This document shows, in pieces, positions 44,995 to 57,670 of a DNA stretch of 64,000 nucleotides (the stretch's first letter is position 1; the number at the start of each line of letters is the position of its first letter). This DNA is from Ferrovibrio terrae. GTDB taxonomy: Bacteria; Pseudomonadota; Alphaproteobacteria; Ferrovibrionales; Ferrovibrionaceae. Under the pieces are notes generated by a model. It was not told the DNA's origin and made no database searches. It saw nothing but the letters and a program-made list of their open reading frames with translations. Position numbers and translations under genes: made by a program. The stretch lies in NCBI RefSeq assembly GCF_007197755.1, contig NZ_CP041636.1, forward strand, positions 3,756,001 to 3,820,000, in the 5' to 3' direction.

Positions 44995-46194
44995 ATGAAT
45001 ATCAGCCAGCAGGCACTGCTCGCGCCCCGGGGCCTTCCGGGTTTCATTCCGGTCTCGCCGTTCAAACGCGCGATGAATGCCCGCTTCCGCGCGGAGTGGC
45101 AGGAGTTGCGCGACTGCCTCATGGACCTGCAGCACAAGGGCCATGAACCGATCTGCGCGATGCAGATGCTGGGCGAAGCGCGCGACCTGATGAATTACAC
45201 CCGAAATGCCGAAGCGGTGCGCACCCGCCTCGACGACCTGCGCGCCAGCCTGGCCGAACCCGACCAGGATTATGGCTATACGCAATCGGCCGAAGACGGC
45301 TCCTGGGGCGGCGGCTACAAAGCCTGGTATCTGCGGCTCGACGCCAGCGTCGATCCACTGAAGGAACTGGTCGAGGCCGGCCATCGCCCCACATATCCTC
45401 TGCGTTTTTTCGCGCCTGTCGATACGCCGGAAAAAATGCGGCGGTATCTCGAAGGCCTGCTGGTCTCCGATATGCTGGCCACCGGCACCGACAACCGCAA
45501 GGAACTGAATTACGCGATCACCAGCCTGGCGCAGATCCTGTTCAAGCCAAAGGTTGCGGCCCTGCTGCCGGATGGCACGCCGGTGCAGCAGCTTGCTGCC
45601 ACGCTGCAGGACTTCCTCGACAACACGGCGCAGAATCCGGAAACCGGTTTCTGGGGCGCCTGGTACATGATCGACGGTGAGCTGAAGAAGACCAACGATC
45701 TCAGCATCACCTTCCATGCGATCAGTTATCGTTCGGACGATCCGCCGCATATGCGCGAGATGGCCGAGACACTGTTTGCCATGCGCGGCAGCCGCTATCC
45801 GTATGGCTGGCGCGATGAAGGCAACCAGAATAACCATCACGCCTATGATGTAGCGCGGCTGCTGCGCCGCGCCTGGCCACATATGACGGCTGACCAGCGG
45901 GCCCGGGCTGAAGCCGAACTGAGCGCGATGGTGGCGCGTGCGCTGAAGGTCTCGATCCGCCCGGACGGCCGCTTCGACGATGCGCCTTATGTCAGTCCGG
46001 CCGAGGCCTATTACTTCGGCGTGTCGTTCTTCGATGAAGTGGGCTTCTTCCGTCCAAGTCGCCGCTTCTGGGGACAGATCGAAAGCGACGATGCGCGCAA
46101 ATTCCGCGCTGCGCTGCGCGACGACCTGCTGCATATGGACCAGCGCAACGCCATGGTCACCGCAGCATTGCGCAAGCTCGACGCCGTGGACTGA
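44995..46194 (+). CDS. Unknown 399-residue protein, helical toroid-like
   Basis: A 399-residue cytoplasmic protein that I do not recognise. The sequence is rich in helical segments with aromatic and glycine-containing loops, for example EDGSWGGGYKAWYLRLDASVDP, ETGFWGAWYMIDGELKKTNDLSITFHAISYR and RDEGNQNNHHAYDVARLLRRAWP. Repeated GxW/GFWGxWY-type motifs and histidines recall alpha/alpha toroid enzymes such as terpene-cyclase-like or glycosidase-like folds, but this is only a visual similarity. There is no signal peptide. An ATAGGG site precedes the ATG. It follows the TPR-methyltransferase gene and is convergent with the iron-binding-protein gene, separated from it by a bidirectional terminator. 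Confidence 0.7.
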   Translation: MNISQQALLAPRGLPGFIPVSPFKRAMNARFRAEWQELRDCLMDLQHKGHEPICAMQMLGEARDLMNYTRNAEAVRTRLDDLRASLAEPDQDYGYTQSAEDGSWGGGYKAWYLRLDASVDPLKELVEAGHRPTYPLRFFAPVDTPEKMRRYLEGLLVSDMLATGTDNRKELNYAITSLAQILFKPKVAALLPDGTPVQQLAATLQDFLDNTAQNPETGFWGAWYMIDGELKKTNDLSITFHAISYRSDDPPHMREMAETLFAMRGSRYPYGWRDEGNQNNHHAYDVARLLRRAWPHMTADQRARAEAELSAMVARALKVSIRPDGRFDDAPYVSPAEAYYFGVSFFDEVGFFRPSRRFWGQIESDDARKFRAALRDDLLHMDQRNAMVTAALRKLDAVD

Positions 46195-50029: not shown

Positions 50030-50824
50030 TCAATACCCAAGGCTGTGTATGAAGCCGGCCAGCGCCTTCAACGTTGCAGCGGGCTGATCGCGCTGGGGCG
50101 AATGACCACAGGCGGGAATCAGCAGGATGTCGGCCCCTGCCCTCTGTCGGATACTGCCCACTTGGGCGATGGTCCCGTATTCGTCATCCTCACCCTGGAT
50201 CACCAGCACCGGGACTTTGATGCGGTCGACATAGGCTTCGATATTCCAGTGGTGGAACTCCGGGTTGAGCCAGGAATCGCACCAGCCGCGGAAGGCGCAA
50301 TCGACATTGTCGCCGTGGTATTTCGCCAGCCGCGCCTTCAGGTCGCCCCCGGCATAGGCCTTGTCGGCGGCGCGGATCGAACGAACGGACACTTCCTCGC
50401 AGAAGACATGCGGCGCCATCACGGCGACGCCCAGCAACCCTTCTCTCTGCGGAATGGTTTTTTTGGCACCAGCATAGATCAGCGAGATCGATGCGCCGTC
50501 GGAATGCCCGACCAGAATATGCGACTGGATCCCGAGCGCGGTGAGCAGATCGGGCAGACCCGTCTCGCCTTCGGCATGCATGTAGGTGATCGGGCGCGGC
50601 AGCGCGCAGGGCGACGAACCGCCATAACCGATGCGGCTGTATACCAGCGCCGGCAGACCGGTGGCCTGCGCCAGCTGGTCAGGGAAATCCTTCCACAGCG
50701 CGACGCAGCCCAGCCCTTCATGCAGGAAAACCAGCACCGGCAGCGATGTATCGCGCAGCGCGGAACCCGCCCAGCGATATTCAATGCGGCCGGCCGGCGT
50801 ATCGATGAACTGCAGGCCGGACAT
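50030..50824 (-). CDS. Alpha/beta hydrolase in the benzoate operon
   Basis: A 264-residue alpha/beta hydrolase. The nucleophile elbow is VGHSDGASISL (S108), the acid is in VIQGEDDEYGT and the histidine in PACGHSPQRDQP; the oxyanion hole region is FLHEGLGCVALW. Its start lies five bases from the end of the benzoate-CoA ligase gene, so it is translated from the same transcript. Hydrolases at this position are common in box clusters and might cleave aromatic or ring-opened esters, thioesters or lactones; the substrate is unknown. No signal peptide. Confidence 0.82.
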   Translation of the reverse strand: MSGLQFIDTPAGRIEYRWAGSALRDTSLPVLVFLHEGLGCVALWKDFPDQLAQATGLPALVYSRIGYGGSSPCALPRPITYMHAEGETGLPDLLTALGIQSHILVGHSDGASISLIYAGAKKTIPQREGLLGVAVMAPHVFCEEVSVRSIRAADKAYAGGDLKARLAKYHGDNVDCAFRGWCDSWLNPEFHHWNIEAYVDRIKVPVLVIQGEDDEYGTIAQVGSIRQRAGADILLIPACGHSPQRDQPAATLKALAGFIHSLGY

Positions 50825-50829
50825 GCCGA

Positions 50830-52380
50830 TCAGGCGCGCAGTTTGAAACGCTGGATCTTGCCGGTCGCCGTCTTCGGCAGCTCGGCAACGAATTCAATCC
50901 AGCGCGGATACTTGTACGGTGCAAGCCGGTCTTTCACGAACATCTGCAACTCGCCGATCAGCGATTCTTCGGCGATGAACTCCGCCTTCAGCACCACATA
51001 GGCCTTAGGCTTCACCAGCTCATCGGTATCGGCATGCGCCACCACGGCGGCTTCCAGCACCTTGGGATGCGCCAGCAACGCGGACTCTACTTCGAATGGC
51101 GAAACCCAGATGCCGCTGACCTTCAGCATGTCGTCGCTGCGGCCCGCATAGGTGTAATAGCCATCCTTGTCGCAGACATATTTGTCGCCGGTACGGGTCC
51201 ACGGACCGTGGAAGGTGGCGAGGCTCTTGGTGCGGTTGTTCCAGTAGGCGACAGCACAGGACGGCCCGCTGACCAGCAGTTCGCCGATCTCGCCGGCGGC
51301 AACCTCTTTGCCATCCTCACCCACCACGCGCAGGTCATAGCCCGGCACGGCCATGCCGGTGCTGCCGTAACGCACTTCGCCCGGGCGATTGGAAAGGAAG
51401 ATATGCAGCATCTCGGTCGAGCCGATGCCGTCGAGGATTTCGACGCCGAAGGTTTTTTCCCAGCGCTTGCCGATATCTTCGGGCAGCGCCTCACCAGCCG
51501 ACACGCAGCGGCGCAGCATGGCAGAACCGCTGTCTTTGGTAATGCCTTGATCGGCGAGAATGCCGGCGTAGAGCGTCGGCACGCCGTAGAAAATGGTGGC
51601 CTGATGATCCTTCAGCCGCTTCATCACGGCATTGGGCGTCGGCCGCTCGGCCATCAGCACGCCGGTAGCACCGACATGCAGCGGGAAGGTCATGGCATTG
51701 CCCATGCCATAGGCGAAAAACAGCTTCGCCGCCGAGAAGACGACATCGCTTTCCCGGATGCCCAGCACCTCTTCGGCATAGAGCACGCAGGTATGCACGA
51801 TATCACTGTGCAGATGCATGGTGCCTTTCGGCGAGCCGGTCGAACCCGAAGAGTAAAGCCAGAAGCCGATATCGTCCGGCGTGGTGGCGGCCGTCTCAAG
51901 CTGGTCGGACTGTTCTTCCAGCAGTTTGACAAGCGGCGTCACCGTTGGCGGCACCTGGCCGGAGATCAGCACCTTCTCCAGATAGGGCTGGCCGGAAATG
52001 ATCGGGCGGAAGCGTTCCATCAGTGCATCCGACACGCAGAGCACGACAGCGCGGCTGTCGCGCAGCATGAAGTCGTAATCCGGCGTGGTGAGCAACGTGT
52101 TGACCGGCACCGGCACGGCGCCGATTTTCATCGCGCCCCAGAACATCGCGGGGAAGTCGATGCTGTCCAGCATCGCCAGCAGCACGCGCTGCTCGGGCTT
52201 GACGCCCTGCGCCTTCAGCAGATTGCCGGCACGGTTCACCCGCGCGGCCAGCTCGGCGTAAGTGCAGCTGCCCTTGTCGTCGATGAAGGCGGTCTTGGCC
52301 CCACGGCCTTCAGCGATATGGCGATCGATGAAATGGGTCGCGGCGTTATACCGCCGCGGCAGCTCAAGAAAGCGCGGCAT
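50830..52380 (-). CDS. bclA: Benzoate-CoA ligase
   Basis: A 516-residue acyl-adenylate-forming enzyme of the benzoate-CoA ligase family, which makes benzoyl-CoA from benzoate, ATP and CoA. The AMP-binding motif YSSGSTGSPKGTMHLH, the adenine-binding GIGSTEMLHIFLSNRPGEV and the C-terminal hinge YTYAGRSDDMLKVSGIWVSP with the catalytic lysine in KTATGKIQR are present. IGSTEMLHIFLSN is diagnostic for benzoate and related aryl-CoA ligases. A CGGGAGGATCCC context precedes the ATG at 52380. It lies between a flavodoxin gene and a hydrolase gene on the minus strand, opposite boxR-boxC-boxB, so it supplies their substrate. Confidence 0.94.
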   Translation of the reverse strand: MPRFLELPRRYNAATHFIDRHIAEGRGAKTAFIDDKGSCTYAELAARVNRAGNLLKAQGVKPEQRVLLAMLDSIDFPAMFWGAMKIGAVPVPVNTLLTTPDYDFMLRDSRAVVLCVSDALMERFRPIISGQPYLEKVLISGQVPPTVTPLVKLLEEQSDQLETAATTPDDIGFWLYSSGSTGSPKGTMHLHSDIVHTCVLYAEEVLGIRESDVVFSAAKLFFAYGMGNAMTFPLHVGATGVLMAERPTPNAVMKRLKDHQATIFYGVPTLYAGILADQGITKDSGSAMLRRCVSAGEALPEDIGKRWEKTFGVEILDGIGSTEMLHIFLSNRPGEVRYGSTGMAVPGYDLRVVGEDGKEVAAGEIGELLVSGPSCAVAYWNNRTKSLATFHGPWTRTGDKYVCDKDGYYTYAGRSDDMLKVSGIWVSPFEVESALLAHPKVLEAAVVAHADTDELVKPKAYVVLKAEFIAEESLIGELQMFVKDRLAPYKYPRWIEFVAELPKTATGKIQRFKLRA

Positions 52381-52438
52381 GGGATCCTCCCGGGGAATTT
52401 GTTTTTGTTTTATGCCGCCCGCTAATGGAAGCAGGCGG

Positions 52439-52906
52439 TTATGCAGCCTTGGCCAGCGGAGCGACCTGCTCTGCCCATTCCACCGCCCAGGCCACGCCGT
52501 CATCTTCGGGCAGAGTCCCGCTCGACGCGTTATGCTGCATGCGTTCGCCGATCATGGTGGCGTTCAGGCTGCGCAGCGCATCCTCGAACTGCTTGCCGCC
52601 GTGGTTGAACGTGTCCTGATAGGTCGTGTCGCCCAGACCGATCACGCCGGCATACTTGCCGCTGAGATCAGGGCGCACGGCCAGCAGGTCGGACATGAAA
52701 TCGCGGGCGTTGTCGGGCACGTCGCCCTGACCGTAGGTCGAGGTAATGATCAGGAAGGCGCCGGGACGCTGGAACACGTCGGCCTTCAGGTTGTCCATCA
52801 GCAGGATGTCGACGCCGTGGCCCTTGCCTTCCAGCGCCTTCTTGACGTCGCCCGCCACCAACTCGGCTGTGCCGGTCATGGTGCCGACCAGAATGGATAC
52901 CTGCAT
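52439..52906 (-). CDS. MioC-type flavodoxin
   Basis: A 155-residue single-domain flavodoxin. The FMN phosphate-binding loop is ILVGTMTGTAELVAGDV, and the second loop STYGQGDVPDNARDF with GLGDTTYQDTFNHGG matches MioC and the flavodoxin domain of sulfite reductase and P450 reductase. It is expected to carry electrons in the cytoplasm. It is the first gene of the minus-strand unit with benzoate-CoA ligase and the hydrolase, and is divergent from boxR. Because no boxA reductase gene is in this window, it is a candidate electron donor to BoxB; this is inference from position. Confidence 0.87.
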   Translation of the reverse strand: MQVSILVGTMTGTAELVAGDVKKALEGKGHGVDILLMDNLKADVFQRPGAFLIITSTYGQGDVPDNARDFMSDLLAVRPDLSGKYAGVIGLGDTTYQDTFNHGGKQFEDALRSLNATMIGERMQHNASSGTLPEDDGVAWAVEWAEQVAPLAKAA

Positions 52907-52980
52907 GAACAGCTCCTCAACGCTCCAATGGTAGTGATCCCGAACTATAACGCATCATCCTCTAGCGCTCCAGAGGAAAT

Positions 52981-52994
52981 TGCACTATAGTGCA
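52981..52994. promoter_or_regulatory. BoxR operator 1 (perfect palindrome)
   Basis: TGCACTATAGTGCA is a perfect 14-bp palindrome overlapping the alternative GTG and just before the ATG of boxR. An identical copy lies before boxC at 53941-53954. TGCA half-sites are a known feature of BzdR/BoxR operators. In this position it could autoregulate boxR and also affect the divergent flavodoxin/ligase unit. Confidence 0.85.
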
Positions 52995-52998
52995 CTTC

Positions 52999-53901
52999 AT
53001 GAGCGAGACACGGGACAAAACCACCCCCGAAGATACCGCCTTTCTGCAGACGGTAGGCGAACGCGTCCGCAATGCTCGTGCCCGCCGCGGCATGAGCCGC
53101 AAGATTCTGGCAAAGGATTCCGGCGTTTCCGAACGCTATCTGGCGCAGCTTGAGGGTGGCGCCGGCAATATCTCTATCCTGCTGCTGCGCCAGATCGCGC
53201 GCGCCATGGACCTGCCGATCACCGATTTCCTTGGCGACCGCGCCCCCCTCGGCGTCGACCAGGCTTTGCTGTTGCGCCAGATCGAAGACCTTTCGCCTGA
53301 ACAGCTGCAGGAACTGCAGGGCTTTGTGCGCGACCGGTTTGGGGTGGCGGCCAGCGTGAAGCGCCATATCGCCCTGATCGGACTGCGCGGTGCCGGCAAG
53401 ACCACGCTGGGCCAACTGCTGGCGCAGGCTTTCGGGCTCCAGTTTGTCGAAATGGCCAAGGAAATCGAGGTCGAAGCAGGTCTGTCGCTGAACGAGATTT
53501 TCGATCTCTATGGCCAGGCCGCCTATCGCCGCTTTGAGCGTCGCGCGCTGGAACGCATCACCGCCGATCCCGCTCCCAAAGTGATCGCCACCGGCGGCAG
53601 CCTGCCATCGGAGCCGACGACCTATGCGCATCTGCTGACGCATTGTTTCACCATCTGGCTGAAGGCCTCACCCGAGGAGCATATGGGGCGCGTCGTGGCC
53701 CAGGGTGACATGCGACCAATTACCGGCCAGTCCGAAGCCATGGCCGACCTGAAACGGATTCTGACCCAGCGCGAGGCGCTCTATACCCGCGCCGACATGG
53801 CCTTCGACACAGCAGGCAAGGCCGTGACCCAGGCCGCAGCCGATCTGGCCACGGCGCTGCGCGCCCATCCGGCCTGGCTGGCCCGGGACGCAGCCGAATA
53901 A
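52999..53901 (+). CDS. boxR: BoxR transcriptional regulator of benzoyl-CoA pathway
   Basis: A 300-residue repressor combining an N-terminal XRE helix-turn-helix (residues about 18-80, FLQTVGERVRNARARRGMSRKILAKDSGVSERYLAQLEGG) with a C-terminal shikimate-kinase-like domain (from about 120, P-loop IGLRGAGKTTLGQ). In BoxR/BzdR proteins the kinase-like domain binds benzoyl-CoA and relieves repression. The ATG at 52999 was taken as the start; a GTG at 52990 is inside the operator palindrome. Downstream are boxC and boxB, 80 bases away, with their own operator. A TATAGT at 52986-52991 places a possible transcription start at about the ATG, giving a leaderless message. Confidence 0.92.
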   Translation: MSETRDKTTPEDTAFLQTVGERVRNARARRGMSRKILAKDSGVSERYLAQLEGGAGNISILLLRQIARAMDLPITDFLGDRAPLGVDQALLLRQIEDLSPEQLQELQGFVRDRFGVAASVKRHIALIGLRGAGKTTLGQLLAQAFGLQFVEMAKEIEVEAGLSLNEIFDLYGQAAYRRFERRALERITADPAPKVIATGGSLPSEPTTYAHLLTHCFTIWLKASPEEHMGRVVAQGDMRPITGQSEAMADLKRILTQREALYTRADMAFDTAGKAVTQAAADLATALRAHPAWLARDAAE

Positions 53902-53923
53902 GGCAATAGCTGCAAGATAGTTC

Positions 53924-53954
53924 TTGCATCGACCCGAAACTGCACTATAGTGCA
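53924..53954 (+). promoter_or_regulatory. boxC promoter with embedded BoxR operator 2
   Basis: TTGCAT at 53924-53929 and TATAGT at 53946-53951 are 16 bases apart; the predicted start is near 53958. The perfect palindrome TGCACTATAGTGCA (53941-53954) covers the -10 box, so a bound repressor would directly exclude RNA polymerase. A GGGAGG ribosome site follows before the boxC ATG at 53982. Confidence 0.75.
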
Positions 53955-53981
53955 TTATCCGTTTCAGGGAGGATTGCCTCA

Positions 53982-55679
53982 ATGGCCGAACAGATCAACG
54001 GCACCCAGCATGCCCAGGAAAAGCTTGCCTTGGTCGATTTCCGCACCGAGCCGAGCCAGTACAAGCACTGGAAGCTGACTTTCGATGGCCCCGTCGCCAC
54101 GCTGGCGATGGATGTGCGCGAAGATGGCGGCCTGCGTCCCGGCTACGAACTGAAGCTCAATTCCTACGATCTCGGCGTCGATATCGAACTGCATGATGCC
54201 GTGCAGCGCCTGCGCTTCGAACATCCCGAAGTGCGCTCCGTCATCCTCACCTCGGGCAAGGAACGCATCTTCTGCGCCGGCGCCAATATCCGCATGCTCA
54301 ACCAGTCGGCCCATGGCTGGAAGGTCAACTTCTGCAAATTCACCAACGAGACCCGCAACGGCATCGAAGATGCCACCAACGAGTCGAGGCAGACCTATAT
54401 CGCGGCCGTGAACGGCCCCTGCGCCGGCGGCGGCTATGAACTGGCGCTTGCCGCCGATTACATCCTGATGGCCGATGACGGCAACACCAGCGTGTCGCTC
54501 CCGGAAGTGCCGCTGCTGGCCGTCCTGCCGGGCACCGGCGGCCTGACCCGCCTGGTCGACAAGCGCATGGTGCGCCGCGACCGCGCCGACTTCTTCTGCA
54601 CCATCGAGGAAGGCATCAAGGGCAAGCGCGCTGTTGACTGGCGTCTGGTCGACGAGATCGTGCCGCGCACCAAGCTGAATGATACGGTGCGTGAGACCGC
54701 GCAGAAGTTCGCCGCCAAGTCGGACCGCCCGACGGACGCCAAGGGCATTAGCTTCAGCAAGCTGGACCGCAAGATCGACGGCGACAAGATCAGCTACAGC
54801 CATGTCGAGGCCAAGCTCGATCGCACCAAGGGCATCGCCGAGATCACCGTGCATGGCCCCAAGGCCGCGCCGCCGGCATCTGCCGAGGCGATCCAGGCGC
54901 AGGGCGACCAGTTCTGGTCGCTGGCGCTGGCGCGTGAGCTGGACGACCTGATCCTGCATCTGCGCACCAACGAAGAAACCACTGGCATGTGGGTATTCCG
55001 TACCGAGGGCGATGCCGACCTGGTTGCCGCATACGATGCCGCCCTGGAACAGCACAAGGCTCATTGGCTGGTGCGCGAAATCCGTCTGTTCCTCAAGCGT
55101 GTGCTCAAGCGCATCGACGTCTCGTCGCGCTCGACCTTCGCCCTGATCGAGCCGGGCTCCTGCTTCACCGGCACGCTGCTCGAACTGGTCGTGGCATCTG
55201 ACCGCTCCTACATGCTGGACGGCCAGATGGAAGGCGACAATCGCCCGCCCGCCACTGTGCGCATGACGCCGATGAATTTCGGCGCCTATCCGATGGGCAA
55301 CGGCCTGAGCCGCATCGCCAGCCGGAATCTCGACGATCCGTCCCGCACGGATGAAATGAAGAAGCTGATCGGCAACGATCTGGATGCCGAAGCCGCCGAC
55401 GAAGCTGGCCTCGTCACCTTCACGCCCGACGACATCGACTGGGAAGACGAGGTGCGCATCGCCATCGAGGAACGCGCCGCCTTCTCGCCCGATGCCCTCA
55501 CCGGCATGGAAGCCTCGCTCCGTTTCGGCGGCCCCGAGACGATGGAGACCAAGATATTCGGCCGTCTGACCGCGTGGCAGAACTGGATTTTCCAGCGTCC
55601 CAACGCCGTCGGCGACCAGGGTGCGCTCAAGCTTTACGGCACCGGCCAGCGCGCCGGCTTCGACCGCAAGCGCGTGTAA
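53982..55679 (+). CDS. boxC: Benzoyl-CoA-dihydrodiol lyase
   Basis: A 565-residue crotonase-superfamily enzyme that hydrolytically opens the 2,3-epoxide of benzoyl-CoA to 3,4-dehydroadipyl-CoA semialdehyde and formate. Two enoyl-CoA-hydratase-like halves are seen: residues about 40-230 with EVRSVILTSGKERIFCAGANIRML and NGPCAGGGYELALAADYILMADD forming the oxyanion hole, and a second from about 300 to 500. Length matches known BoxC proteins. It has a strong ribosome site and starts the boxC-boxB operon behind a BoxR-operator promoter. The 16-base gap to boxB shows cotranscription. Confidence 0.95.
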   Translation: MAEQINGTQHAQEKLALVDFRTEPSQYKHWKLTFDGPVATLAMDVREDGGLRPGYELKLNSYDLGVDIELHDAVQRLRFEHPEVRSVILTSGKERIFCAGANIRMLNQSAHGWKVNFCKFTNETRNGIEDATNESRQTYIAAVNGPCAGGGYELALAADYILMADDGNTSVSLPEVPLLAVLPGTGGLTRLVDKRMVRRDRADFFCTIEEGIKGKRAVDWRLVDEIVPRTKLNDTVRETAQKFAAKSDRPTDAKGISFSKLDRKIDGDKISYSHVEAKLDRTKGIAEITVHGPKAAPPASAEAIQAQGDQFWSLALARELDDLILHLRTNEETTGMWVFRTEGDADLVAAYDAALEQHKAHWLVREIRLFLKRVLKRIDVSSRSTFALIEPGSCFTGTLLELVVASDRSYMLDGQMEGDNRPPATVRMTPMNFGAYPMGNGLSRIASRNLDDPSRTDEMKKLIGNDLDAEAADEAGLVTFTPDDIDWEDEVRIAIEERAAFSPDALTGMEASLRFGGPETMETKIFGRLTAWQNWIFQRPNAVGDQGALKLYGTGQRAGFDRKRV

Positions 55680-55695
55680 GACAGGGAGAACGACG

Positions 55696-57108
55696 ATGGC
55701 TATCGACTACAATTCGCTCATCCCCAATAACGTCAACCTCTCCGACAACCGCCGCCTGCAGCGCGCGCTGGAAGACTGGCAGCCGAAATTCCTCGACTGG
55801 TGGGGCGATATGGGCCCGGCCGGTTTCCAGGCGCGCGAGGCCTATCTGCGCACCGCGATCAGCGTCGACAGCCAGGGCTGGGCGCATTTCGACTATGTGA
55901 AGATGCCCGACTATCGCTGGGGTATTTTCCTTGCCGAGCCGGAAGCCGAGCGCAAGGTGAATTTCGGCGACCACAAGGGTGAGGCCGCCTGGCAGGAAGT
56001 TCCCGGTGAATATCGCGGCGTGCTGCGCCGCCTCATCGTTACCCAGGGCGACACCGAGCCGGCCTCAGTCGAACAGCAGCGTCTGCTCGGCCAGACCTGC
56101 CCGTCGCTGTATGACATGCGCAACCTCTTCCAGGTCAACGTGGAGGAAGGCCGCCATCTCTGGGCCATGGTCTACCTGCTCGACGCTTACTTTGGCCGCG
56201 ACGGCCGCGAGGAAGCCGAGGCGCTGCTGCAGCGCCGCTCGGGCGACGACGACAAGCCGCGCATCCTCGGCGCCTTCAACGAGGCGACGCCGGACTGGCT
56301 CAGCTTCTTCATGTTCACCTTCTTCACCGATCGTGACGGCAAGTTCCAGCTGGCATCTCTCGCCGAGAGCGGCTTCGATCCGCTGTCGCGCACCTGCCGC
56401 TTCATGCTGACCGAAGAAGCGCATCATATGTTCGTGGGCGAAACCGGCATCAGCCGCGTGATCCAGCGCACCTGCGAAATCATGCGTGACTTCAAGACCG
56501 ACGACGTGCGCAAGCATGGCGCCGTCGATCTGCCCACGCTGCAGAAGTATCTCAACTTCCACTTCTCGGTGTCGGTCGATCTGTTCGGTTCGGAAATCTC
56601 GACCAACGCGGCGAACTACTACACCATGGGCATCAAAGGCCGCTTCGACGAGACCCGCATCGGCGACGACCACAAGCTGACCGATGCGTCCTACAAGGTG
56701 CTGGAAGTGCACGGCGACGGCTTCCGTGAGGTCGAGGCTTCCGCCCTCACCGCCCTGAACGAGCGCCTGCGCGACGACTATGTGGCCGACTGCGCCCGCG
56801 GCGTGATGCGCTGGAACCAGATCATCAAGCGCCATGGCATCGACTTCGAGCTCAAGCTGCCGCACCGGGCCTTCAACCGCCAGATCGGCCAGTTCGCCGA
56901 ACTGAAGGTCAGCCCGGACGGCAAGATCGTCAGCCAGGCCGAGTGGGATGCCAAACATCACGCCTGGCTGCCGACCGAGGACGACCGCCTCTATGTGATC
57001 AGCCTGATGAAGCCGGTGACCGAGATCGGCAAATATGCCGGCTGGATCGCTCCGCCGGCCCGCGGCATCAACAACCAGCCGACCGACTTCGAATACGTCC
57101 GTCCGTAA
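55696..57108 (+). CDS. boxB: Benzoyl-CoA 2,3-epoxidase oxygenase subunit
   Basis: A 470-residue class I-type diiron oxygenase that epoxidises benzoyl-CoA using O2 and external electrons. Likely iron ligands are E121, E151 and H154 (VNVEEGRHLW), D212, E241 and H244 (LTEEAHHMFVGE), matching the ligand spacing of the crystallised BoxB. The ATG at 55696 has an AGGGAGA site. Known BoxB receives electrons from the FAD/Fe-S reductase BoxA, but no boxA gene is present in this window. A strong terminator follows, so the primary unit is boxC-boxB. Confidence 0.96.
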   Translation: MAIDYNSLIPNNVNLSDNRRLQRALEDWQPKFLDWWGDMGPAGFQAREAYLRTAISVDSQGWAHFDYVKMPDYRWGIFLAEPEAERKVNFGDHKGEAAWQEVPGEYRGVLRRLIVTQGDTEPASVEQQRLLGQTCPSLYDMRNLFQVNVEEGRHLWAMVYLLDAYFGRDGREEAEALLQRRSGDDDKPRILGAFNEATPDWLSFFMFTFFTDRDGKFQLASLAESGFDPLSRTCRFMLTEEAHHMFVGETGISRVIQRTCEIMRDFKTDDVRKHGAVDLPTLQKYLNFHFSVSVDLFGSEISTNAANYYTMGIKGRFDETRIGDDHKLTDASYKVLEVHGDGFREVEASALTALNERLRDDYVADCARGVMRWNQIIKRHGIDFELKLPHRAFNRQIGQFAELKVSPDGKIVSQAEWDAKHHAWLPTEDDRLYVISLMKPVTEIGKYAGWIAPPARGINNQPTDFEYVRP

Positions 57109-57155
57109 GGCGGCCCAGTTCCCTCCCAGACCACCATCTCCTTCCCAGACCAGTT

Positions 57156-57190
57156 GGGCGTCCGAATCCCCTTCGGACGCCCTTTTTTTT
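57156..57190 (+). terminator. Strong rho-independent terminator after boxB
   Basis: GGGCGTCCGAA and TTCGGACGCCC form a perfect eleven-pair stem with a five-base loop (TCCCC), directly followed by eight T residues. It closes the boxC-boxB transcription unit 47 bases after the boxB stop. Confidence 0.95.
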
Positions 57191-57217
57191 AGCATGCCGG
57201 CTCCGTATCATCCGGCC

Positions 57218-57670
57218 ATGACCGATTCAGCCCAGTTCAGCCCCGACCGCCCGTTTTCCTGCCCCCGCATCGTGCAATGGGGCGAATGCGACCCTGCCGG
57301 CATGGTCTACACCACGCAGTTCCTGGACTATGTGATGGAAACGCTGGAGGCCTTCTGGCGCGACGTGATCGGCTTCAGCTTCCTGCGTCTGCACAAGGAG
57401 CTCGGCTACGGCTCACCGACCGTGAGCACCAAGCTGGATTTCCAGCGCGCCCTGAAAGGCGGCGAGCCCTTCACGGTCGAGCTGCGCGTCGAGAAGCTGA
57501 GCCGTTCGACCATCACCTACGATTTCAAGGGGCGCAATGCCGCCGGCGAGGTCTGCTTCACGGCGGCGCATATCTCCTGCATCGTGGATGAGAAGATTCT
57601 CAAGTCGGTGGAAATCCCGGAGCGTATCCGCACCCCCATCGAAACCTATCGCCAGGCAACGACAGCCTAG
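57218..57670 (+). CDS. 4-hydroxybenzoyl-CoA thioesterase-family protein
   Basis: A 150-residue hot-dog fold thioesterase. The active-site segment VQWGECDPAGMVYTTQFLDYVMETLEAFW, with the aspartate at about residue 25, is characteristic of 4-hydroxybenzoyl-CoA/YbgC-type thioesterases. In box clusters such enzymes are thought to release CoA from dead-end or accumulating aromatic CoA thioesters. It lies just after the boxB terminator, so read-through or a separate promoter is needed; no clear promoter is seen. The next gene, gpt, begins 16 bases later. Confidence 0.88.
   Translation: MTDSAQFSPDRPFSCPRIVQWGECDPAGMVYTTQFLDYVMETLEAFWRDVIGFSFLRLHKELGYGSPTVSTKLDFQRALKGGEPFTVELRVEKLSRSTITYDFKGRNAAGEVCFTAAHISCIVDEKILKSVEIPERIRTPIETYRQATTA

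Follow-up and report, generated by a model that had tools for sequence, protein, structure and literature searches.

The window considered here, that is, the whole stretch of 64,000 nucleotides that was analysed, comprises positions 3756001 to 3820000 of the single-contig genome of Ferrovibrio terrae (G000:C1:3756001-3820000; 4,264,634 bases, 100% complete). It contains a divergent benzoate cluster, in which a minus-strand unit of flavodoxin, benzoate-coenzyme A (CoA) ligase and hydrolase genes diverges from a plus-strand unit of boxR, boxC, boxB, and a thioesterase gene, and in which the flavodoxin probably takes the place of the reductase BoxA as electron donor to the epoxidase BoxB. The minus-strand unit is transcribed in the order flavodoxin (52906-52439), benzoate-CoA ligase (52380-50830, with its ATG at 52380), and alpha/beta hydrolase (50824-50030). 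The MioC/cindoxin-like short flavodoxin, the proposed BoxB electron donor, scores 78 bits against PF00258 (cut-off, 25), the ligase scores 792.8 bits against TIGR02262 (benz_CoA_lig; cut-off, 375.25), and the hydrolase, the last gene of the unit, scores 48.3 bits against Pfam Abhydrolase_6 (cut-off, 26.3). A 3-oxoadipate enol-lactonase model gives this hydrolase 39.6 bits, far below the cut-off of that model, and the protein appears to belong with the lactonase predicted in BoxR regulons. The plus-strand unit opens with boxR (52990-53901), which encodes the BoxR repressor, composed of a helix-turn-helix (HTH_3) and a shikimate-kinase-like (SKI) domain (NF006015, 389 bits; cut-off, 204); its annotated start is the first GTG, and an ATG lies at 53000. 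It is followed by boxC (53982-55679) for 2,3-epoxybenzoyl-CoA dihydrolase (TIGR03222, 963.5 bits; cut-off, 712.3), boxB (55696-57108) for the diiron benzoyl-CoA 2,3-epoxidase (TIGR03225, 877.4 bits; cut-off, 499.1), and a gene for a 4HBT-type acyl-CoA thioesterase at about 57218-57670 (Pfam 4HBT_2, 59.2 bits; cut-off, 25.5). A preliminary description of this DNA had listed boxC, boxB, boxR, ligase, thioesterase, and hydrolase genes, all of which the profile searches recover, and had placed the flavodoxin first in the divergent ligase unit, as the gene order bears out. The closest named BoxB relative, 92% identical, belongs to a Ferrovibrio metagenome-assembled genome (MAG) with the same gene order, and all four genomes of the genus in our panel share the arrangement as well. 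Between positions 46000 and 64000 of the window neither a boxD-like gene nor a benzoate transporter was recognised; a genome-wide search for BoxD was not made.

That boxA is missing from the window had been pointed out before, along with the need for a genome-wide search. The absence extends to the whole genome: the BoxA profile TIGR03224 yields best matches of 22.3 and 21.6 bits against a cut-off of 459.2, both of which are short ferredoxin-like patches (model positions 9 to 57 and 33 to 57), and a hidden or diverged BoxA is thereby ruled out. As a control, the model was applied to the 71 genomes with BoxB above its cut-off in a sample of 290 genomes of the class Alphaproteobacteria. Twelve matches exceeded the cut-off, and a thirteenth, of 415.9 bits in G172, is truncated by a contig end and was counted as BoxA. 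Four other matches (75.7 to 79 bits; E value, <=1e-20) cover the reductase half of the model from about position 194 on, in frames of 560 to 1075 amino acids, and were taken as other reductases. BoxA is accordingly present in 13 of the 71 BoxB genomes and absent from 58, and BoxB without BoxA is the common state in the class sample and no oddity of the Ferrovibrio genome. The BoxB proteins that lack BoxA look intact, because six positions that we take to be the diiron ligands (E, E, H, D, E, H) are kept in Ferrovibrio BoxB and in all 150 of 150 aligned BoxB rows. Ferrovibrio BoxB also matches the BoxB structure 3per in the PDB (E value, 1.8e-230).

The flavodoxin is an acidic protein of 155 amino acids with a calculated isoelectric point of 4.59. 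Its phosphate-loop region GTMTGTAE and its STYGQGDVPDNA region are conserved across 31 aligned relatives, which marks it as a short-chain Flavodoxin_1 protein with conserved loops of the flavin mononucleotide (FMN) type that is predicted to bind FMN. Its PDB matches are PA3435 (5b3l; E value, 9.3e-21), cindoxin (4oxx; 2.1e-17), and MioC (2hna; 7.6e-17), and the unnamed structure 2m6r is also among the closest solved relatives. The label of a MioC-type flavodoxin, used in the preliminary description, is to be narrowed. The protein shares fold family and length with Escherichia coli MioC and with PA3435, but it scores 99.9 bits against the MioC equivalog NF006531 of NCBIfam (cut-off, 158) and 102.2 against a second equivalog (cut-off, 160), and its genome context is a BoxR regulon; it is therefore MioC-like, or MioC/cindoxin-like, and not MioC. 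A PF00258 family search finds two other matches in the genome, a WrbA equivalog over the cut-off and a WrbA-like protein under it, so that among PF00258 matches the box flavodoxin is the only one of its kind.

Both units carry sites that suggest control by BoxR. A perfect operator, TGCACTATAGTGCA, lies between flavodoxin and boxR at 52981-52994, and a second perfect copy precedes boxC at 53941-53954; on the flavodoxin side there is also a degenerate operator-like site, CGAACTATAACGCA, at 52941-52954 (11 of the 14 positions of TGCAYTATARTGCA), which has a counterpart at the same place in Ferrovibrio relatives. The shared BoxR operator region of the preliminary description thus holds up as one perfect palindrome at 52981-52994, with the correction that the other copy stands before boxC. 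TGCACTATAGTGCA equals the core of the BoxR/BzdR motif ATGCACTATAGTGCAT given in PMC6449761. The two perfect copies, both at box promoters, are the only ones in the genome, and the reversed pattern has no match. Allowing up to two mismatches, the genome holds six sites: the two perfect ones, one with one mismatch, and three with two. The one-mismatch site (G000:C1:3956138-3956151; L236) lies before a short-chain-dehydrogenase-like frame. With a BoxR protein and TGCA-N6-TGCA operators at catabolic promoters, the cluster has the make-up of a BoxR regulon, as judged from sequence, with binding predicted. Flavodoxin and boxR are divergent in 28 of 28 loci that hold flavodoxin, boxR, and boxB, and an operator with at least 12 of 14 positions lies between or beside the two genes in 22 of the 28 (0.04 expected from mononucleotide shuffles). 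Some of these loci are closely related (L003 and L147 hardly differ in this region), and two of the six failures (L194 and L209) were judged on 68 bases only. The flavodoxin gene and boxR-boxC-boxB run in opposite directions from a shared BoxR operator, from which co-regulation with the oxygenase, as for a dedicated partner of the cindoxin type, may be deduced.

The preliminary description had proposed a survey of other genomes. Loci without BoxA from 14 family codes repeat the gene order flavodoxin-boxR-boxC-boxB, with the BoxR operators conserved. A flavodoxin like that of the window (E value, <=1e-15) occurs in 41 of the 290 genomes, namely, in 35 of the 71 with BoxB and in 6 of the 219 without. 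When only box-type flavodoxins are counted, that is, those linked to boxR, ligase, or hydrolase by our judgement, the figures are 30 of 71 versus 4 of 219 (Fisher test, 4e-17, which ignores kinship). Seven genomes with weaker flavodoxin matches (G048, G063, G138, G158, G206, G231, and G266) were left out of this set, the surroundings having been inspected for G048 and G138 only. Within the set, 28 genomes, of 14 family codes, are among the 58 with BoxB and without BoxA, and 3 of the 30 (G068, G079, and G283) have the flavodoxin-boxR locus apart from boxC-boxB. Family codes f30, f59, and f61 hold both the BoxA and the flavodoxin kinds.

At the level of loci, the class panel comprises 71 box loci of 70 genomes (G289 is missing and G202 appears twice). 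BoxA and flavodoxin occur together in none, BoxA alone in 13, flavodoxin alone in 25, and neither in 33; for the 41 loci that carry BoxR, the corresponding counts are 0, 13, 24, and 4. Fisher values are 0.0027 for the 71 loci and 1.4e-7 for the 41, kinship being ignored. These counts rest on tblastn, as the gene caller often missed AT-rich or antisense genes. Four rows were dropped before the tree and locus panel were made, L019 because a stop codon interrupts the frame within the matched stretch, L217 and L220 for being short, and L154 for being partial, and in G032, whose boxB is split over two contigs with the flavodoxin on the other one, the flavodoxin was set present by hand.

A reductase of the adrenodoxin-reductase/FprA type is encoded 3' of boxB on the same strand in nine loci, 6 to 29 bases after boxB in G132, G203, G214, G263, and G274 and 0.6 to 2.1 kb after it in four f48 genomes. 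All nine lack BoxA, and eight also carry the flavodoxin. Among solved structures, the protein matches adrenodoxin reductase (1cjc; E value, 1.1e-73) and FprA (1lqt; 2.4e-61), and Ferrovibrio encodes a homologue away from the box genes, at G000:C1:8172-9461 (52% identity over positions 2 to 400). Its genome likewise encodes an FPR-type ferredoxin(flavodoxin)-NADP reductase near G000:C1:2879726-2880616 (1a8p; 2.6e-112) and a PaaE/VanB-like reductase. FprA (E value, <=1e-50) is present in 46 of the 58 BoxA-less BoxB genomes, in 5 of the 13 with BoxA, and in 26 of the 219 without BoxB; of the 34 genomes with a box-type flavodoxin, 31 have it.

When the FPR, VanB-like, and FprA proteins of Ferrovibrio were used as tblastn queries, one boxB-adjacent case appeared beyond the nine FprA loci. 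This is L179:9058-11577 in G145, which has BoxR and BoxB and neither BoxA nor flavodoxin; 150 bases after boxB it carries a gene for a reductase with Fer2 and NAD-binding domains that matches phthalate dioxygenase reductase (2pia; E value, 1.3e-60). The same search returned eight weak FprA-like matches (67 to 75 bits) 4 to 6 kb past boxB of the BoxA type. Such varied redox genes in BoxA-less clusters are as expected if they supply BoxB. Pfam scans for carriers covered 138 of 338 called flanking genes as one set and 10 more, nine of them from loci with neither partner. No carrier family was found among the 25 commonest families in the flanks of those loci; the other 147 families were not listed, and a rare carrier may be among them.

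Taking these observations together, we consider it likely that Ferrovibrio has a BoxA-independent aerobic benzoyl-CoA pathway in which electrons pass from reduced nicotinamide adenine dinucleotide phosphate (NADPH) through FprA or FPR and the flavodoxin to BoxB; each electron-transfer step, as well as the choice of reductase, we infer. From the operators and the known BoxR system, BoxR would be released by benzoyl-CoA and both divergent units would be derepressed. NADPH would then reduce a reductase encoded elsewhere, most likely the FprA-type protein, else FPR. The reductase would pass electrons to the box flavodoxin, which would deliver them one at a time to the diiron site of BoxB, where benzoyl-CoA would be epoxidised, and BoxC would then open the ring. 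The idea that the flavodoxin might replace or complement BoxA stems from the preliminary description, and a boxA elsewhere in the genome, which could have spoken against it, is not there. In its favour are the absence of BoxA, the BoxA-less arrangement in 14 families, and the operators, as well as the FprA-type reductase gene after boxB in nine BoxA-less loci. It has to be qualified in one respect: because the flavodoxin occurs in only 28 of the 58 BoxA-lacking BoxB genomes, it is one replacement for BoxA among probably several, and its presence with every BoxA-less BoxB is ruled out.

The closest known systems resemble the cluster in part. The cluster resembles BoxAB of Azoarcus/Aromatoleum evansii in its BoxB, BoxC, benzoate-CoA ligase, and BoxR with operator, and its divergent regulon resembles the box regulon of Betaproteobacteria as PMC6449761 describes it; it differs in lacking BoxA and in having a flavodoxin in the divergent unit instead. 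BoxA is a reductase with NADPH, flavin adenine dinucleotide (FAD), and two 4Fe-4S clusters, and according to PMC4498308 it does not co-purify with BoxB and is required only in minor amounts, which fits a donor that touches BoxB briefly. The use of a flavodoxin by a catabolic oxygenase has a precedent in P450cin, whose partner, cindoxin, is a flavodoxin (PMC9687028). In both systems a dedicated flavodoxin of the MioC-like kind is encoded next to an oxygenase of catabolism, and the two flavodoxins match in sequence, as given above. The differences are that BoxB is a diiron epoxidase and no P450, that the Ferrovibrio cluster has no reductase gene, and that the reductase of the nine relatives belongs to the adrenodoxin-reductase family, cindoxin reductase being similar to NADPH-dependent ferredoxin reductases instead (PMC9687028). 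PaaABCE offers another parallel, a CoA-ester epoxidase with an exchangeable reductase, PaaE, and BoxB resembles PaaA (PMC4498308). PaaE, however, is a one-piece FAD/2Fe-2S reductase, and this general type follows boxB only in the G145 relative. The word flavodoxin has 0 occurrences in PMC6449761, and in the open-licence literature we found no description of a flavodoxin in Box clusters, which is no proof that none has been published.

Several observations weigh against a flavodoxin-fed BoxB. The box cluster in the window has no reductase gene, the FprA and FPR homologues being encoded elsewhere, and the genome operator scan finds no perfect or near BoxR site at the Ferrovibrio FprA gene. Within the BoxA-less BoxB genomes, FprA is not significantly more frequent where the flavodoxin is present (25 of 28 versus 21 of 30; P, 0.11); FprA may therefore act with other carriers too and feed BoxA-less BoxB in a larger set of genomes. 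Both BoxA and a box-type flavodoxin are missing from 30 of the 71 BoxB genomes, and BoxB can therefore evidently be served by something other than these two. Conversely, in four BoxB-less genomes (G059, G085, G164, and G229) the flavodoxin is retained next to the hydrolase, and the stretch examined there shows no box genes, and in G148 and G216 (f61), 2 of the 13 BoxA genomes, a flavodoxin-hydrolase pair lies distant from the BoxA-type cluster. The flavodoxin may thus have another use or be a relic.

The mutual exclusion of BoxA and flavodoxin is also less telling than the locus counts suggest. On a FastTree tree of 150 BoxB rows, drawn with midpoint rooting (61 of 145 inner branches starred, many forks weak), BoxA is confined mainly to one part. 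One side holds 55 rows with BoxA, 2 with both partners, and 26 with neither, and the 27 rows in which flavodoxin or FprA stands alone (18, 8, and 1) are all on the other, together with 40 with neither. An independent-pairs test on this tree found two pairs only, the flavodoxin differing in neither, and has no power; it lends no support to repeated independent swaps. Because BoxA clusters on the tree and there are only two pairs, the exclusivity is no independent evidence event by event. Moreover, among the best 80 of at least 589 BoxB relatives in GTDB, taken as stretches of up to 19.4 kb, many of which end early, BoxA is present in 45 and not seen within the stretch in 35, which does not amount to genome-wide absence. 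The flavodoxin is present in 4 of the 80, without BoxA in L003 and L009 and with BoxA in the same locus in L016 and L047, both Burkholderiales/Betaproteobacteria MAGs.

Some features of these loci may be recorded in their own right. L016:5489-13281 and L047:1431-8475 contain flavodoxin, BoxR, boxC, boxB, boxA, and a second boxB, with boxA flanked by both boxB frames. The flavodoxin-hydrolase pair of the four BoxB-less genomes (L241, L242, L243, and L240, for G085, G164, G229, and G059, respectively) adjoins an aconitase-like gene. The pair in G148 and G216 (L218 and L219) lies in surroundings that recur at the flavodoxin-type box locus of G060, a genome with the same genus code, and looks as if an older cluster had left it behind.

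BoxB might instead be fed by a housekeeping chain, made up of a ferredoxin with FprA or FPR or else of a PaaE-like reductase, with the flavodoxin dispensable or a back-up; we regard this scenario as unlikely yet worth serious attention. Thirty of the 58 BoxA-less BoxB genomes manage without a box-type flavodoxin, 21 of these 30 having FprA, the G145 gene of the phthalate-dioxygenase-reductase type stands directly after boxB, and Ferrovibrio itself has FPR and the PaaE/VanB-like reductase. What such a chain leaves unexplained is a flavodoxin under a BoxR operator in the same divergent position in many families and nearly restricted to BoxB genomes (30 of 34 carriers). We think it quite improbable that the flavodoxin acts at some other point of the benzoate regulon or in repair, such as reductive reactivation of the diiron centre, in place of BoxB turnover. 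Such a role would fit a gene that is co-directional with ligase and hydrolase and not with boxB, and a flavodoxin-hydrolase pair that four genomes keep in the absence of boxB and two others keep at a distance from it. A constant link between flavodoxin and BoxB is ruled out by these genomes. However, by established family chemistry ligase, hydrolase, BoxC, and thioesterase need no electrons, and BoxA and flavodoxin never share a locus in the class panel. That the cluster is incomplete and the pathway dead in Ferrovibrio, as the classification of its ligase context as incomplete in PMC10803450 might suggest, is hardly credible: the reading frames are intact, ligand positions as well as operators are conserved, and the four genomes of the genus in the panel and the Ferrovibrio MAG keep the arrangement.

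Returning to the flavodoxin as donor of BoxB, its implications reach beyond Ferrovibrio. Completeness of the aerobic benzoyl-CoA pathway is judged by the presence of BoxA, and BoxA-less clusters are scored as incomplete, including that of Ferrovibrio terrae K5 (PMC10803450). If our proposal is right, BoxA-less genomes would be expected to degrade benzoate aerobically, annotation based on BoxA would miss 58 of the 71 sampled BoxB genomes, and a stereo-demanding arene epoxidase would run on a redox chain of two or three genes with a likely reductase of the FprA type. We lean, though only slightly, towards a wider view in which BoxB epoxidases are of two kinds, BoxA-served and BoxA-independent, the latter being the sampled alphaproteobacterial majority with exchangeable partners and BoxAB being one regional solution. 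The partners would be the BoxR-controlled flavodoxin with an FprA-type enzyme in one large group, a protein of the phthalate-dioxygenase-reductase type in at least one lineage, and other carriers in the remaining ones. Outside the class, the BoxB neighbourhoods of Rokubacteria and a SAR324 MAG (L004 to L007 and L035) have in common a pair of frames of about 159 and 800 to 930 amino acids, and the short frame of L035 encodes 2Fe-2S domains (Fer2 and Fer2_2) like those of molybdenum hydroxylases.

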